NCBI GenBank assembly: GCA_027492275.1 | Contig: JAPUFC010000044.1 | Coordinates: forward strand, 1 to 64,000 | Length of the DNA: 64,000 nucleotides | Direction: 5' to 3' | Source of the DNA: Mesorhizobium sp. | GTDB lineage: Bacteria > Pseudomonadota > Alphaproteobacteria > Rhizobiales > Rhizobiaceae | Part shown: positions 3,510 to 30,724 of the stretch, one piece after another | Layout of the letters: each line of letters opens with the position of its first letter | Position numbering within the stretch: position 1 is the stretch's first letter | Notes under the pieces: model-generated | Told to the model about the DNA's origin: nothing | The model's database searches: none | The model's input: the letters and a program-made list of their open reading frames with translations, nothing else | Made by a program: the position numbers and the translations under genes

Positions 3510-4297
3510 GATGGAAAACAGACCGGCGGTGGAGGTGCGGAACGTCTCGATCAGGTTTGGCGGCGTTCAGGCCCTGCAGGCGGTCAGCTTCGGCATCGAG
3601 CGGGGGAGCACGTTCGGCATCATCGGTCCCAACGGGGCCGGCAAGACGACGCTGTTCAATTGCATAACCGGCTTTCTGCTCCCCGATCGGGGAGGGGACA
3701 TACTTCTCAACGGGGAGCTTATCCTTGACAAGACCGTCAATCAGATAGCCGGCATGGGAGTTGCCAGGACATTCCAGAATCTCGCTGGACGAAGGGCGGA
3801 CGGCGCGCGAAAACATCCTCGCCGGCATGCAGCTCGCACTCGACTACAATCCGCTTCGCGCTTTCTTTCCCAATGGTCGCATACGGGAGAAGGAGGGCAG
3901 GGCGACGGAAAAGATCGATCGGATCGCTTCCGACCTCGGCTTGTCGCAGGCTGTTCTGGATTCGAAGGTTTCGGCGCTGTCGCTCGGTCTGCAAAAGAAG
4001 ATCGAGATGGTTCGTGCCCTGGTGTGCAGCCTCAATCTCCTGTTTCTCGACGAACCAGCCGGCGGGCCGAACGACATGGAAAGTCGCGAGCTGCAGAAGG
4101 GATTGATGCAGATCGCGAAATCCAACCCCCAACTGACGATCGTCTTGATCGACCACGACATGAACTTCGTGATGCCGCTCTGTCACAGGATAGCCGTTCT
4201 GAATTTCGGGCAGCTTGTCGCGGTGGAGGATCCGCGAGGCGTCTTCCGCAACCCTGCTGTTGTTGCCTGTTATCTTGGCGAAGACGATGCAGCTTGA
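3508..4297 (+). pseudogene. livG: Frameshifted livG-type ABC transporter ATPase
   Basis: The N-terminal part reads MMENRPAVEVRNVSIRFGG with Walker A GPNGAGKTT and continues to ARTFQN near 3780. The reading frame then shifts by one base between about 3773 and 3800. The remainder is read in the next frame as ARENILAGMQLALDYNPL onward, ending YLGEDDAA. The ABC signature is degenerate (LSLGLQ for LSGGQQ), while Walker B LLFLDEPA and the H-loop region LIDHDMNFV are recognisable. LivG normally energises branched-chain amino acid uptake with LivF, LivH, LivM and LivJ. The frameshift, altered signature and lost permeases indicate a pseudogene. The second ORF starting at 3761 could make a fragment only. 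Confidence 0.75.
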
Positions 4298-4997
4298 AGT
4301 CAGGAACATCAGCGTCCACTACGGGCGCATGCAGGCGATCGCCAACATCTCGTTGAGCGTGTCGCCGGGACAGTTCGTGGCGATCTTGGGGGCGAACGGC
4401 GCGGGCAAAACGACCTTGCTGCGGGCCGTGTCGGGATTGGTCCGCCCGTCGTCCGGCATCCATCGAGCTGGATGGCCAGCCGATCGCCAGGCTCGCGCCG
4501 CATGAGATCGCCCGGCGCGGCATGGCGCATGTTCCCGAAGCCGGGGCATGCTGCCAAGCCTGACGGTCGCCGAGAACCTGAGGCTGGGTGCCGCATACCG
4601 GTCGGACAAGACCGATCTGTCCCGCGACTACGAGCGGGTTTTCGAGTATTTTCCTGTGCTGAAGGGCAAGATGTCGCAGAGGGCGTCCCTCCTTTCAGGC
4701 AGGGAGCAGCAGATGCTGTCCCTGTCGCGAGCGCTTCTGGCGGCGCCGCGTCTGCTGATGGTCGACGAGATGTCCCTCGGTCTGGCCTCGCAGCTGACGC
4801 GGCAACTGCTGGATGTCGTGGCCGATCTGCCTCGCAGCGGGACAGGCGTTCTTTGTGTCGAGCAGAACACCAAGCTGGTCCTGAAGAAAGCCGACTACGC
4901 CTATGTGCTGGAAACCGGCCGGGTGAGCCACAAAGGCACCGGGTCGAGCCTGAGTTCCGACGAGAGCATCGTCCACTCGTACCTCGGACAGGAATAG
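4287..4997 (+). pseudogene. livF: Frameshifted livF-type ABC transporter ATPase
   Basis: It starts inside the end of livG (11-nt overlap), as intact liv operons often do. [20 protein letters not shown] and Walker [10 protein letters not shown] lead to PSSG near 4460, where a shift moves the match to [21 protein letters not shown] second shift near 4545 moves it to MLPSLTVAENLRLGAAY. The last part has a near-normal signature LSGREQQ, Walker B LLMVDEMSLGL and VEQNTKLVL, ending YLGQE. The two frameshifts inactivate the gene. The last frame alone (from 4548) would lack Walker A. Confidence 0.75.
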
Positions 4998-5217
4998 TTT
5001 TGGGACAGGAGCAGTCCGGGTTGGGAGCGGCGGCAGATTGTCGGCTCGTATGAGGAAGCCGGCGCCAGGGTCCTGGGGCCGGGCATGCAGCGGCTGACGC
5101 GCGGCGGCGTGCCGGACGTTCGGGAACCAAGATCGCGCCGGTGTGTTGCCGTCGGAAGCATCTTTCCAGAAGGTGCGGGCAAAGCTATCTGTGGGCATCC
5201 GAATCTGACGGGACTCC

Positions 5218-6111
5218 ATGAGCAAGGACCGTTCGTCCTCCCCCGACTCGCCGTTCGTCCGCCGTTTCAGGCGAACCTCCGATCGCCTGAACGATCTCAA
5301 GGCGCGGTTGCAGGACCGGCTGCTGACGATCCACCGGAGCGATCACCTCGTGGTGGCCCAGCGCGGCCGGCCGGCGGAGCAGCACGAGCTGGTGGTCGCC
5401 TCCTACAACATCCACAAATGCGTCGGCATGGACCGGCGCTTCGATCCGATGCGGATCATCCATGTGATCGCCGAAATGGACGCCGACGTGGTGGCGATCC
5501 AGGAGGCCGACGAGCGCTTCGGCCGCCGCCGGGGCCTGCTCGACCTGCCCGCGCTGGAGAAGCACACGGGCCTGCGGCTCCTGCAGGCGTCGCTGGCCGA
5601 GCAGGGCCATGGCTGGCACGGCAACGCATTGCTGCTGCGCAAGGGGCGCGCGCGGACCGTTCGCCGCCTTGCCTTGCCGGGCGCGGAGCCGCGGGGGGCG
5701 TTGGTCGCAGACCTCGAATTGCCGTCGGGCGAATTGCGCCTCGTGGCCGCGCATCTCGGCCTGTTGCGGCAGAGCCGCCGCTGGCAGCTGCGAACCATCA
5801 TGGACGCGATCGAGGAGGGGCCGCGCATGCCGACCCTCCTGGTCGGCGATCTCAACGAATGGCGGCCCGGACGGCGTTCGTCGCTGCACGCGCTGCAGCC
5901 CATGTTCGGCAGGCTGCCGGGCGGGCTGCTCAGTTTCCCGTCCTATTTCCCGGTCATGGCGCTCGACCGGGCGATCGGCTCGCCCGGGCTGCTGACGTCG
6001 CTCGAGGTGCACGACACGCCGCTGGCGCAGATCGCGTCCGATCACCTGCCCATCAAGGCGCATATCGATATCGAAGCCGCGGGACGCAGCCTGAGCGGCG
6101 CCGCCGCCTGA
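5218..6111 (+). CDS. Endonuclease/exonuclease/phosphatase (EEP) family protein
   Basis: A 297-residue protein with the EEP (DNase I-like) metal-dependent phosphodiesterase fold. Visible catalytic motifs are SYNIHK (Asn), AIQEAD (metal-binding Glu), AHLGL (His), GDLNEWR (Asp/Asn) and the terminal SDHLPI. The first 55 residues are basic and charged, with no signal peptide or membrane segment. Substrates in this family range from DNA ends to sphingolipids and inositol phosphates, so the substrate is not assigned. It is the first intact gene after the pseudogene stretch and lies 71 nt before the phosphofructokinase gene, possibly co-transcribed. Confidence 0.85.
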   Translation: MSKDRSSSPDSPFVRRFRRTSDRLNDLKARLQDRLLTIHRSDHLVVAQRGRPAEQHELVVASYNIHKCVGMDRRFDPMRIIHVIAEMDADVVAIQEADERFGRRRGLLDLPALEKHTGLRLLQASLAEQGHGWHGNALLLRKGRARTVRRLALPGAEPRGALVADLELPSGELRLVAAHLGLLRQSRRWQLRTIMDAIEEGPRMPTLLVGDLNEWRPGRRSSLHALQPMFGRLPGGLLSFPSYFPVMALDRAIGSPGLLTSLEVHDTPLAQIASDHLPIKAHIDIEAAGRSLSGAAA

Positions 6112-28040: not shown

Positions 28041-29513
28041 TCACCCCATCAGCGCCTTCACCGCCTTCATGTCTTCCAGAAATCGCGCCCGTTCTGCCTC
28101 CGCCTCTTCCTTCTCGCGGATGCGCAGGATGAAGGACGGATGGATGGTGAGAAAAACCTTCAGCCCATCCTCGCGCTCGACCACCTGTCCGCGCATCTTC
28201 GTCACGGGAACCGCCTTGCCGAGAAGGCCGAGCGCGGCGGTCGCGCCGAGCGCCACGGCGAGGCGCGGCTTGAGCAGCGTCAGTTCGTGGTCCAGCCACC
28301 AGTTGCAGGCGCGCACCTCGCCGACATTGGGTTTCGAATGGATGCGCCGCTTGCCGCGCGGCTCGAACTTGAAGTGCTTCACGGCGTTGGTGACGTAGGT
28401 CTTTTGCCGCGCGATGCCGGCATCGTCCAGAATCGCGTCGAAGACGCGGCCGGCCGGCCCGACGAAGGGTTTTCCGGCGATGTCCTCCTGGTCCCCGGGC
28501 TGCTCGCCGACGAAAACCACCTCCGCCTGTTCCGGGCCTTCGCCGAACACGGTTTGGGTGGCGTCGCGCCAAAGCGGGCAACGCCGGCAGGCCTTGGCCG
28601 CCTCCCGCGCCTCGGCGATCGACGCATATTCTTCCTGCTCGGGCGCTTCCTGTCGCGTCGGCCAATGCCTGGCCTGCACCTTGGCGTGGTGAGGTGCCGG
28701 CGTGGTGGGCATCCTGGCGATCATGTCCTTCGCGGCCTCGTCCGCTCCTGCAATCAGATCAGGAATGAGCGAGGCTTCCGGCAGGTTCCGCCAGTATTTC
28801 TTCGGCATCTCCTTCTGCATGGCCTTCACCTTCAGCCGCGCCGGGTTGAAGATGTTGGCGAAGTAGGTGCGCCACAGATCCTCGGCTGCGTCGTCCGGCG
28901 GGGCGCTGTCCTTTTCGGCGCCGGGGCCGATGGTCAGGCGCGCGCCGTCCCAATCCGCCGAGGCGTGCGGCGTCAGGATGGTCCAGCGCATGCCGGTGAA
29001 GCGCCGCACGAAGAAGGGCGCGTTGCGCGCGACGATAAAGTGCGACGGCTCGAACCAGGCGACGTAGCGATCCTCGCCGCCGACTTGTCGGAAGCGCACG
29101 AAGGCGCGCATCTTGTGGATGTCGCGGCGGACCGCCTTCTCCATCGCCTCGAGATGGCGGACATCCGGGTCCGAGGCGATGCGCAGCAGGTTTTTCTCGG
29201 CGCGCAACCGCCACAGCAGGCGGTACAGAAACGCGAAGCGCTGCGGGTCCGAATGGCAGATTGCAGTTTCGGCGCGCTCGATGAATTCCTTCGGGACCGT
29301 GAGGGCGGCTTCTCCCTCGACCGGGGGCAAGGGCGCGGACGTTCCCTGAAAGAGATCGGTCGCCGCGTCGCCGACGCTCCAGAGAACCTGCTCCGGGCCG
29401 ATGCGCGCGAGAGCGAGGCTGCGCGCCGCGCTCCGCCAGCCGTCGAAATCGGTTTCGGAGGCGAGGACGACCGAAATGGGGTCGTTGGCTAGAATAGGCT
29501 CAGTTGCTCGCAC
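28041..29513 (-). CDS. udgX: UdgX-family uracil-DNA glycosylase fused to a DUF4130 domain
   Basis: A 490-residue two-domain protein. Residues 1-270 match DUF4130 (RFAFLYRLLWRLRAEKNLL, MRAFVRFRQ, FVRRFTGMRWTILTPHASAD). Residues 280-490 form a family-4-like uracil-DNA glycosylase with four FeS-cluster Cys expected (ACRRCPLW visible), VGEQPGDQED and the UdgX-specific loop GKRRIHSKPNVGEVRACNWW. In UdgX the His of KRRIH forms a covalent bond to DNA after uracil removal. The GTG start overlaps the stop of the radical-SAM gene by 25 nt, so both are made from one message. The fusion and pairing are a known but functionally unexplained DNA-repair association. Confidence 0.92.
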   Translation of the reverse strand: MRATEPILANDPISVVLASETDFDGWRSAARSLALARIGPEQVLWSVGDAATDLFQGTSAPLPPVEGEAALTVPKEFIERAETAICHSDPQRFAFLYRLLWRLRAEKNLLRIASDPDVRHLEAMEKAVRRDIHKMRAFVRFRQVGGEDRYVAWFEPSHFIVARNAPFFVRRFTGMRWTILTPHASADWDGARLTIGPGAEKDSAPPDDAAEDLWRTYFANIFNPARLKVKAMQKEMPKKYWRNLPEASLIPDLIAGADEAAKDMIARMPTTPAPHHAKVQARHWPTRQEAPEQEEYASIAEAREAAKACRRCPLWRDATQTVFGEGPEQAEVVFVGEQPGDQEDIAGKPFVGPAGRVFDAILDDAGIARQKTYVTNAVKHFKFEPRGKRRIHSKPNVGEVRACNWWLDHELTLLKPRLAVALGATAALGLLGKAVPVTKMRGQVVEREDGLKVFLTIHPSFILRIREKEEAEAERARFLEDMKAVKALMG

Positions 29514-30724
29514 GACTTCACCAGCTTCTCGCGCAGCCGCTCACCGTCCAGCGCCGCGCCGGGCGACCAGCCTTCGGCGACGATGAAGGGCCGCACCTTC
29601 GCCACCGACTGGCAGAGACGCCCTACATCCTCCAGCCGCAGCCGGCGGTGGCGGCGGGTGGCCAGCATGCGGTCCACGACCTTGGCGCCCAACCCCGGCA
29701 CGCGCAGCAGCGCTTCGCGCGGGGCGCGGTTGACGTCCAGCGGGAAAAAGGCGCGGTTCGCCAGCGCCCAGGCGAGCTTCGGGTCGATGGCGAGATCGAG
29801 CATGCCGTCCGGCCTGCCGGCGGTGATCTCCCTGCGCTCGAAGCCGTAGAAGCGCATCAGCCAGTCGGCCTGGTAGAGCCGGTGCTCGCGCATCAGCGGC
29901 GGCTTCCTGAGCGGCAGCGCCGAGGACGAATCGGGAATCGGGCTGAAGGCCGAGTAATAGACGCGGCGCAGCCGATAGCTGCCGTAAAGCCGCGCGCTGG
30001 TGGACAGGATGCCGTCGTCCGTCGTGGCGTCGGCGCCGACGATCATCTGCGTCGACTGCCCGCCGGGCGCGAAGCGCTGGCGGCGTTTTGTCCGCACGGT
30101 CGGCTCGGCCTTCTCCTCGATCTTTTCGCGCAGCTTCGCCATCGACAGGCGGATCGTCTCCGGCCGCTTTTCGGGCGCGAGCTGCTTCACGCCCTCGTCG
30201 GTCGGCAGCTCGACGTTGATCGACAGGCGGTCGGCATGGAGGCCGGCGGCCTCGACCAGGGCGGCGGAGGCTTCGGGAATCGTCTTCAGGTGGATGTAGC
30301 CGCCGAATTTCTCCTCCACGCGCAGGCGGCGCGCGATCTCCACCATCTCGGCCATGGTCTCGTCGGGCGAACGCACCACGCCGGACGACAGGAACAGGCC
30401 TTCTATGTAGTTGCGCCGATAGAAGGACATGGTGAGCTTCACCACTTCCTCGATCGTGAAGCGGGCGCGGCGCACGTTGGAGGAGGAGCGGTTGATGCAG
30501 TAGCTGCAGTCGTAGATGCAGAAATTGGTCAGCAGGATCTTCAAGAGCGAGATGCAGCGGCCGTCCGGCGCATAGGAATGGCAGATGCCCATGCCCTCGG
30601 TCGAGCCGATGCCGCCGGATTTCAGCGAATCCCGTTTCGCCGCGCCAGAGGAGGCGCAGGAGGCGTCGTATTTCGCGGCGTCCGACAGGACGGCCAGTTT
30701 CTCGCGGAGCGACAGCGCAGCCAT
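29489..30724 (-). CDS. Putative DNA modification/repair radical SAM protein
   Basis: A 411-residue radical SAM enzyme. TNFCIYDCSYCINR near residue 67 is the CxxxCxxC [4Fe-4S] motif. TIM-barrel segments follow: GLFLSSGVVRSPDETM, GGYIHLKTIPEA and DRLSINVELP. The C-terminus (APREALLRVPGLGAKVVDRM) is a helix-hairpin-helix typical of non-specific DNA binding. This family is known as the partner of the UdgX-DUF4130 fusion. The two genes overlap by 25 nt here. The reaction is not known; action on DNA bases is an inference from partner and HhH domain. Confidence 0.88.
   Translation of the reverse strand: MAALSLREKLAVLSDAAKYDASCASSGAAKRDSLKSGGIGSTEGMGICHSYAPDGRCISLLKILLTNFCIYDCSYCINRSSSNVRRARFTIEEVVKLTMSFYRRNYIEGLFLSSGVVRSPDETMAEMVEIARRLRVEEKFGGYIHLKTIPEASAALVEAAGLHADRLSINVELPTDEGVKQLAPEKRPETIRLSMAKLREKIEEKAEPTVRTKRRQRFAPGGQSTQMIVGADATTDDGILSTSARLYGSYRLRRVYYSAFSPIPDSSSALPLRKPPLMREHRLYQADWLMRFYGFERREITAGRPDGMLDLAIDPKLAWALANRAFFPLDVNRAPREALLRVPGLGAKVVDRMLATRRHRRLRLEDVGRLCQSVAKVRPFIVAEGWSPGAALDGERLREKLVKSCEQLSLF

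Follow-up and report, generated by a model that had tools for sequence, protein, structure and literature searches.

Operons that combine COG1573 and COG4277 have been described as a uracil-DNA glycosylase (UDG) base excision system and as predicted members of the Bacteroidetes SOS network, and SOS control of such a UDG-based system has been cited for Verrucomicrobia and Alphaproteobacteria (PMC8565304). Control by LexA has also been predicted, from footprinting and expression, for Clostridium acetobutylicum CAC3343-CAC3344, for which no partner is identified in the available part of the article (PMC3828012). A gene with such an annotation is induced in desiccated Acinetobacter Tol 5, which fits a use in stress (PMC13130816). 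Here we analyze a locus of this kind in Mesorhizobium sp., located in a stretch of 64,000 nucleotides (nt) that spans positions 1 to 64,000 of contig JAPUFC010000044.1 (assembly GCA_027492275.1; hereinafter, the window). The locus consists of a gene for a radical S-adenosylmethionine (SAM) protein and a downstream gene in which a DUF4130 domain is fused to a UdgX-type UDG domain:

29489..30724, minus strand: radical SAM gene, 411 amino acids (aa), ATG start (TIGR03916, rSAM_link_UDG), with a weak C-terminal helix-hairpin-helix (HhH)
28041..29513, minus strand: DUF4130-UdgX fusion gene, 490 aa, GTG start (TIGR03915 and TIGR03914)
29489..29513, minus strand: 25-nt overlap of the two genes, from the coordinates of the open reading frames (ORFs)
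28773..29459, minus strand: DUF4130 domain (TIGR03915; AlphaFold2 model with a predicted local distance difference test score, pLDDT, of 90.1 and a predicted template modeling score of 0.86)
28059..28769, minus strand: UdgX domain (TIGR03914)

By COG assignment, this pair is the same two-gene unit as the COG1573-COG4277 operon. It departs from the published description as a UDG base excision system in that UdgX is optional here and DUF4130 is the constant component, and in two features of the radical SAM protein, a clamp-binding motif and additional cysteines, that are not mentioned for this operon in the available part of the source (PMC8565304). We consider it probable that the locus encodes an SOS-induced, clamp-docked radical SAM-DUF4130 unit that acts on damaged DNA at replication forks, with UdgX as an accessory.

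The locus is an ordinary member of a catalogued, functionally uncharacterized family. All three NCBIfam models, TIGR03916 (rSAM_link_UDG; 553.6 bits, curated cut-off 343.5), TIGR03915 (SAM_7_link_chp; 226.8 bits, cut-off 112.25) and TIGR03914 (UDG_fam_dom; 322.9 bits, cut-off 189.95), match the window genes far above their cut-offs, and so do the Pfam models PF04055 in the radical SAM protein and PF13566 (137.1 bits against 27) and PF03167 in the fusion protein. The NCBIfam models name an uncharacterized "DNA modification/repair" protein; the family comment reportedly mentions the pairing of the radical SAM protein with DUF4130 and the frequent fusion to UDG. The nearest relative among the 80 homologous loci that were the best-scoring of one scan of named genomes is that of Mesorhizobium sp. 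SOD10, with 85% identity over the whole radical SAM protein. The positions of both ORFs, their 25-nt overlap on the minus strand and the placement of DUF4130 at the N-terminus of UdgX, all reported in the initial annotation, are exact.

The radical SAM protein tracks DUF4130, so that the pairing with the udgX-DUF4130 gene put forward in the initial annotation is supported for DUF4130 and not for UdgX. Among 200 Pseudomonadota genomes, matches above the cut-off were found in 31 for the radical SAM protein and in 31 for DUF4130; these are the same 31 genomes, and the two genes lie near each other on the same contig. In a second sample, 240 genomes of the class that overlap the first sample, each family was detected in 12 genomes, 11 of them shared. 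The two exceptions are a radical SAM gene truncated where a 3,918-base contig ends (L177), in a genome that is 85% complete and in which no DUF4130 was found (G295), and a visibly broken copy of the radical SAM, DUF4130 and UdgX genes that appears to be a decayed operon (L176). Matches below the cut-off were left out of the pairing, namely 6 of 37 for the radical SAM protein in the first sample and 10 of 22 in the second, and 1 of 32 for DUF4130 (in G130). These counts apply to Pseudomonadota; for other phyla, the loci were drawn from collections of plasmids and phages and include megabase-sized records that are perhaps chromosomes, and in two loci (L113 and L137) the available stretch ends too soon to judge the presence of DUF4130. 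Among the 19 close relatives that carry the radical SAM gene (the genome analyzed here included), DUF4130 is found within 1.5 kb in 17; in the other two (L007 and L009), larger stretches and a genome search placed it at a distance of 2.2 kb in G026 and of 494 kb in G021. Thus, both genes are kept in G021 even without linkage. The initial annotation had suggested checking whether the genes are often found apart: in Pseudomonadota, the radical SAM and DUF4130 genes stay together but UdgX does not follow them.

UdgX was detected above the cut-off in 29 of the 200 genomes; 23 of them are among the 31 that carry the pair, and 6 lack it. It adjoins DUF4130 in 22 of these 23 genomes and lies on another contig in the remaining one (one match is partial), whereas 8 of the 31 genomes have no match above the cut-off. 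No UdgX was found beside the pair in any of the eight loci examined from Bacteroidota (four), Fusobacteriota (one) and Bacillota (three). Conversely, four genomes of one genus keep UdgX and have no radical SAM match, and in three of them (G130, G110 and G114), a C-terminal stub of DUF4130 precedes UdgX. In G130 (L172, 1307-2173), this stub is short and an SOS box lies 6 nt upstream of it. The persistence of stub and UdgX without the radical SAM gene implies that the latter and most of DUF4130 were lost while UdgX stayed, at least once under an SOS box; in G130, a deletion appears to have removed the radical SAM gene and most of DUF4130, with the box kept or gained. The radical SAM protein and DUF4130 are therefore the constant unit and UdgX is an optional accessory, and because the radical SAM protein goes with DUF4130 and not with UdgX, the core reaction cannot lie in the chemistry of UdgX.

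An indication of where this unit might act comes from the C-terminus of the radical SAM protein, which reads ...CEQLSLF:

29492..29506, minus strand: QLSLF, residues 407-411, predicted beta-clamp-binding motif (conserved among homologues; pLDDT of the tail below 50)

The sequence QL[S/D]LF, or more generally QxxLF, is a common bacterial clamp-binding motif, and PolC of Bacillus subtilis carries QLSLF at its C-terminus (PMC12309361). PolC and the radical SAM protein share this ending, the former being a replicative polymerase and the latter a radical SAM enzyme. Of 141 distinct homologues (143 closed ORFs, 141 of them unique; two weak partial matches, L020 and L021, and the partial L138 are excluded), 111 carry the strict form Q[LM]xL[FL] within their last 12 residues, against a mean of 0.22 when the last 40 residues are shuffled, and a loose form is present in 126 of 141, against 1.6 in shuffles. 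By comparison, the strict form is found in none of the 124 DUF4130 ORFs of the same loci and in 2 of 961 other ORFs, a mechanical set of frames of at least 250 residues many of which are surely not genes. With F, L, I or W allowed and a six-residue form included, the motif is detected in the last 75 residues of 131 homologues and in the preceding 75 residues of only one; the remaining 10 show the near variants QQSLF, QGSLF, QASLF (twice), QFELF, QRSLF, QPRLL and internal QLSMF, QLSFF and QLSIF. Q407 itself is conserved in 140 of 141 aligned rows. The last six residues are predicted by AlphaFold2 with low confidence (pLDDT below 50), and because of this low confidence we read them as a flexible tail. 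The protein accordingly appears to offer an accessible QL[S/D]LF-type segment of the kind that characterizes beta-clamp-binding proteins; dnaN is present in this genome. In two clostridial proteins and two from faecal metagenomes (L054, L055, L139 and L141), a C-terminal extension of 15-34 residues follows the motif.

In the window, the QLSLF codons fall inside the 25-nt overlap, and the homologous rows are related, mostly alphaproteobacterial sequences, so that 141 rows do not amount to 141 independent events. The ending could accordingly be a by-product of the downstream frame or of shared ancestry, which we regard as very improbable given its behavior elsewhere. At 17 loci, more than 120 nt or another gene separates the radical SAM stop codon from DUF4130, and the motif is kept in all of them, as the loose pattern within the last 14 residues in 14 and as QASLF, QRSLF or internal QLSIF in the other three. 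In G021, the tail reads QLELF despite the distance of 494 kb to DUF4130, and four of the five QLSLF codons differ synonymously between the window and another Mesorhizobium locus (L057). The tail is therefore not imposed by the overlapping gene. The motif also recurs in loci of Bacteroidota, Fusobacteriota and Bacillota, and a distant relative from Gemmatimonadota has QLSLW near its end. This last protein (L053 of Gemmatirosa, 4034-5266) is a divergent homologue with 34% identity that lacks the three additional cysteines considered below, and no DUF4130 was found within 4 kb of its gene.

The other features of the radical SAM protein are the following:

30656..30658, minus strand: C23, first additional conserved cysteine (YDxSCxSSG), C in 140 of 141 rows
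30581..30583, minus strand: C48, additional conserved cysteine (GICHS), C in 140 of 141 rows
30554..30556, minus strand: C57, additional conserved cysteine (DGRC), C in 140 of 141 rows
30497..30520, minus strand: CX3CX2C, residues 69-76 (C69-C73-C76), radical SAM [4Fe-4S] site, kept in 141 of 141 rows
29651..29740, minus strand: HhH-like stretch, residues 329-358 (full protein, HHH_3 E-value 0.024 and HHH_5 E-value 0.006, below the Pfam cut-off)

The CX3CX2C motif, which the initial annotation had called intact, is so in every aligned homologue and, together with the predicted radical SAM fold, places the protein in the radical SAM superfamily. The HhH proposed for the C-terminal part is less certain: DVNRAPREALLRVPGLGAK looks HhH-like by eye but the profile matches are weak. 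N-terminal to the CX3CX2C motif, C23, C48 and C57 form an additional, nearly invariant set of the type seen with auxiliary clusters, which suggests that the protein binds a predicted second Fe-S cluster. Among the structural matches listed, the closest predicted folds are those of HydE (Z 16.7), LipA (Z 16.4) and BioB (Z 16.1). LipA and BioB carry auxiliary clusters; the spacing of the additional cysteines in our protein presumably differs from that in all three enzymes, for none of which do we know of a role in DNA metabolism. In a literature search, we found no publication that joins a radical SAM protein with a clamp-binding motif; the conserved N-terminal cysteines were likewise not found in print, although no search was aimed at them. 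The tail, the cysteines and the recasting of UdgX as optional to the radical SAM-DUF4130 unit are, accordingly, the new elements of this analysis.

A role of the gene pair in DNA damage, which the initial annotation had guessed, is well supported by a promoter element and by the published SOS links (PMC8565304; PMC3828012):

30727..30741, strand not assigned: SOS (LexA) box GTTCATGTTACGTTC, exact GTTC-N7-GTTC, 2 nt before the ATG of the radical SAM gene

GTTC-N7-GTTC is the LexA motif of Alphaproteobacteria (PMC8565304). The box is the sole exact match in the 64-kb window, with a mean of 1.54 per window in shuffles; lexA and recA are present in this genome, and each has a box upstream of its profile match, at 51 nt for lexA and at 168 nt for recA. 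In all 19 whole-genome loci, our own included, there is a single box per 4-kb locus, at the 5' end of the radical SAM gene. More broadly, 115 of 142 homologous loci (duplicate sequences skipped) contain a box close to the start, within a stretch of 190 nt for which the remainder of these loci gives an expectation of 0.006. Of the 27 loci without it, 7 carry CTGT-N8-ACAG instead, which we take to be the box of the Escherichia coli type. The presence of this second motif in seven loci and of neither type in the stretch examined in 20 implies that SOS control has been partly kept while the motif changed. The conserved promoter box makes the operon a predicted member of the LexA/SOS regulon, and the SOS link of this gene pair, having been reported already, is not new in kind. 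Together with the clamp-binding motif, the additional cysteines and the dispensability of UdgX, the box adds to what the initial annotation contained.

For DUF4130, structural comparison gives a weak lead. The 50 matches listed all belong, by title or by general knowledge of the protein, to DHH/DHHA1 proteins, namely PAP phosphatase, RecJ, Cdc45, DhhP, PggH, family II pyrophosphatase, NrnA-like nucleases, GdpP and the C-Ala domain of alanyl-tRNA synthetase (two are titled merely "DNA replication protein"). We take C-Ala and PAP phosphatase to be members of this superfamily. In the RecJ and Cdc45 rows, 165-189 residues are aligned; the best Z score is 7.3, and values below 8 can, according to the warning of the tool, reflect a common arrangement. 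The best Foldseek match of the model has an E-value of 3e-3, with none at or below 0.001, in a mixed list that also includes DsbA, metal-binding proteins and others. DUF4130 thus resembles RecJ and Cdc45 weakly in predicted fold (Z 7.3 and below) but has neither their conserved DHH catalytic residues nor profile similarity to RecJ. In 31 sequences of four phyla, invariance among the charged residues is limited to R140, R171 and R226, E246 being conserved in 30, H133 and E155 in 26 and D115 in 25, and a conserved DHH set of catalytic aspartates and histidines was not found in these rows. DUF4130 is probably a non-catalytic nucleic-acid-binding or scaffolding partner. Assignment to the DHH proteins by profile was dropped: hhalign against 25 alphaproteobacterial RecJ homologues gives a probability of 0.2%, and a search of the DUF4130 profile against Protein Data Bank (PDB) sequences with E-values up to 10 returned a single match, a designed protein (E-value 1.8).

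The UdgX domain retains three motifs of UdgX:

28482..28508, minus strand: motif A, GEQPGDQED, residues 336-344, aligned with solved UdgX chains
28338..28352, minus strand: R-loop KRRIH, residues 388-392, with the presumed cross-linking His392, aligned with solved UdgX chains
28134..28142, minus strand: motif B, HPS, residues 458-460, aligned with solved UdgX chains

The KRRIH loop noticed in the initial annotation has the same letters as in the solved chains, and its histidine is kept in 107 of 108 aligned UdgX domains (a 74-bit match in L003 is left out of the alignment). The corresponding residue of Mycobacterium smegmatis UdgX, H109, is the cross-linking histidine (PMC10359453; PMC10776899). 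The further statement that this histidine traps abasic DNA needs qualification: the histidine is there, but in the M. smegmatis enzyme the cross-link forms in a step coupled to the excision of uracil, and an abasic site that already exists is not cross-linked (PMC10776899). The window protein shares KRRIH, GEQPG and HPS with M. smegmatis UdgX and matches the 6ail/6io9 chain in phmmer with an E-value of 3e-51; 6IO9 is named as UDGX in the literature (PMC10776899). The solved chains, 205-229 residues long, represent the glycosylase domain alone, whereas UdgX of the window is fused behind DUF4130 in an SOS operon with the radical SAM gene.

Starting from the architecture, co-occurrence, SOS boxes and motif conservation seen in the sequences, we infer that the operon is induced, that the radical SAM protein binds the clamp and carries a second cluster, and that DNA is the substrate. 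LexA would repress the operon, and upon damage the radical SAM protein and DUF4130 would be produced together. The radical SAM protein, probably with two Fe-S clusters, would dock on the beta sliding clamp via its C-terminal QLSLF, and the clamp would recruit the pair to sites where replication has stalled or left gaps. There, radical chemistry might be directed at a damaged base or sugar of the template or of gap DNA and either undo the lesion or allow it to be copied. Where present, UdgX could excise uracil from single-stranded or double-stranded DNA and stay covalently attached, presumably shielding the site. A more elaborate version, which we offer as a tentative and rather doubtful extension, is a replisome-coupled machine for radical DNA repair or editing, in which a two-cluster, clamp-tethered radical SAM enzyme and a catalytically dead RecJ/Cdc45-like partner that presents single-stranded DNA would, as part of the SOS response, chemically reverse or modify a lesion in the gaps that forks leave behind.

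Several observations weigh against this reading or parts of it. The AlphaFold2 model of the radical SAM protein has pLDDT below 50 at residues 23-45, and because the model is unreliable there, no cluster geometry can be read from it. The shortness of the clamp motif is one of them, as is the relatedness of the 141 rows, which are mostly alphaproteobacterial. Promoter evidence is incomplete in the 20 loci with neither box, and in G021 the radical SAM gene has a box, but no exact match to it occurs in 3.7 kb at the DUF4130-UdgX gene, which lies apart. Genome-wide, GTTC-N7-GTTC occurs 102 times against about 90 expected from window shuffles scaled up, that is, without a clear excess, and the reversed pattern occurs 36 times, a control whose expectation need not equal that of the forward pattern. 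An excess across the genome was therefore dropped as evidence; the weight of the box lies in its position and conservation. The non-catalytic interpretation of DUF4130 rests on the lack of an invariant Asp, His or Cys in 31 rows and on a fold match of middling Z score, with no profile similarity to RecJ in hhalign. A figure legend, moreover, calls DUF4130 a "predicted mutagenesis-related enzyme" (PMC3765255).

That label leads to the alternative in which the pair repairs nothing and modifies the template or damaged bases for copying by an SOS polymerase. SOS control and a clamp motif are common to translesion factors, and both count in favor of such a mutagenic accessory; no link to a polymerase was found in this analysis, and we judge this unlikely. 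A somewhat lower probability still is given to direct reversal of a lesion by an enzyme of the photoproduct lyase type, with DUF4130 as a helper. The radical SAM fold and DNA-damage control would suit it, and DUF4130 has been associated in print with SplB-like radical SAM proteins (PMC3765255). However, the closest predicted folds among the matches listed are HydE, LipA and BioB, and spore photoproduct lyase is absent from the 12 phmmer matches in the PDB and from the structural matches listed, an absence that does not amount to exclusion. Three conserved N-terminal cysteines are, to our knowledge, not a feature of spore photoproduct lyases. Assignment of the protein to SplB was not retained, although its absence from these matches proves nothing.

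Equally improbable, in our estimate, is the two-enzyme step in which UdgX captures a damaged or abasic site and the radical SAM protein then processes the adduct or the base. The R-loop and catalytic motifs are intact and conserved, and UdgX accompanies 23 of the 31 pairs, adjoining DUF4130 in 22; against this stand the eight pair genomes with no UdgX above the cut-off, its absence from beside the pair in the eight loci of the other phyla and its survival alone after loss of the pair. Phage defense can be set aside as extremely improbable. What speaks for it is one full-length radical SAM copy on an IMG/VR contig (L137), whereas neither protein matches a PADLOC model at an E-value of 0.001 or below, the genes occur together with SOS boxes in numerous bacterial genomes and plasmids, and the INPHARED record "Acinetobacter phage MD-2021a" (L056), which carries glyQ and glyS in addition to the operon, looks like a chromosomal contig; the candidate was rejected on the PADLOC result and the chromosomal appearance of this record. 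INPHARED contains 10 records with a match, eight metagenome scaffolds named "Bacteriophage sp." and two Acinetobacter records, of which L054 and L055 (both "Bacteriophage sp.") and one Acinetobacter record (L056) were inspected. The scan of viral contigs gave two loci, one of them partial. In L137 (1836-5797), an ORF that resembles a tape measure gene by eye is followed by the radical SAM gene and a hemerythrin-like ORF, perhaps at a prophage boundary or in a mobile copy.

If the more elaborate, replisome-coupled version is correct, the replication clamp of bacteria would direct a radical enzyme whose chemistry on DNA might insert sulfur or proceed through a sugar radical; we know of no precedent for this. 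The unit is widespread, being present in 31 of the 200 Pseudomonadota genomes sampled and in loci of Bacteroidota, Bacillota and Fusobacteriota. We found no published test of its reaction; two papers suggest a role. An orphan repair annotation becomes testable in this way: the near-invariant clamp-binding tail points to the place of action and the three conserved cysteines to the mutants of choice. The core of the unit is, moreover, not UdgX, although its chemistry is the known one.

The arrangement of the genes varies among the homologous loci. The initial annotation took the 25-nt overlap to mean that both proteins are made together; the overlap is compatible with co-production, but in G021 the two genes are 494 kb apart. 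The length of the overlap is a product of the GTG start in this genome: across 138 loci, the latest possible DUF4130 start most often precedes the end of the radical SAM gene by 1 nt (30 loci) or by 4 nt (20 loci), and an overlap is forced in 51. The order of radical SAM gene then DUF4130 is also annotated in plasmid records of Bacteroides, Parabacteroides, Spirosoma, Pusillibacter and Azospirillum. In L033, L112, L115, L118 and L130, an ORF of about 165 aa resembling hemerythrin (HHE) di-iron proteins is inserted between the radical SAM gene and DUF4130, and the hemerythrin-like ORF of L137 directly follows the radical SAM gene; three of these loci are from Sphingomonas or Sphingobium. The name is presumptive, being based on the motif. 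A nucleoside or cytidine deaminase-like ORF (HPE...CPMCA, identified by eye) directly precedes DUF4130 in L013, L061, L182 (7373-7864) and L183 (2289-2813). In the split operon of G021 (L181 and L183), the radical SAM gene with its SOS box is found in one place, and the deaminase-like ORF precedes the DUF4130-UdgX gene in the other, 494 kb from the radical SAM gene.

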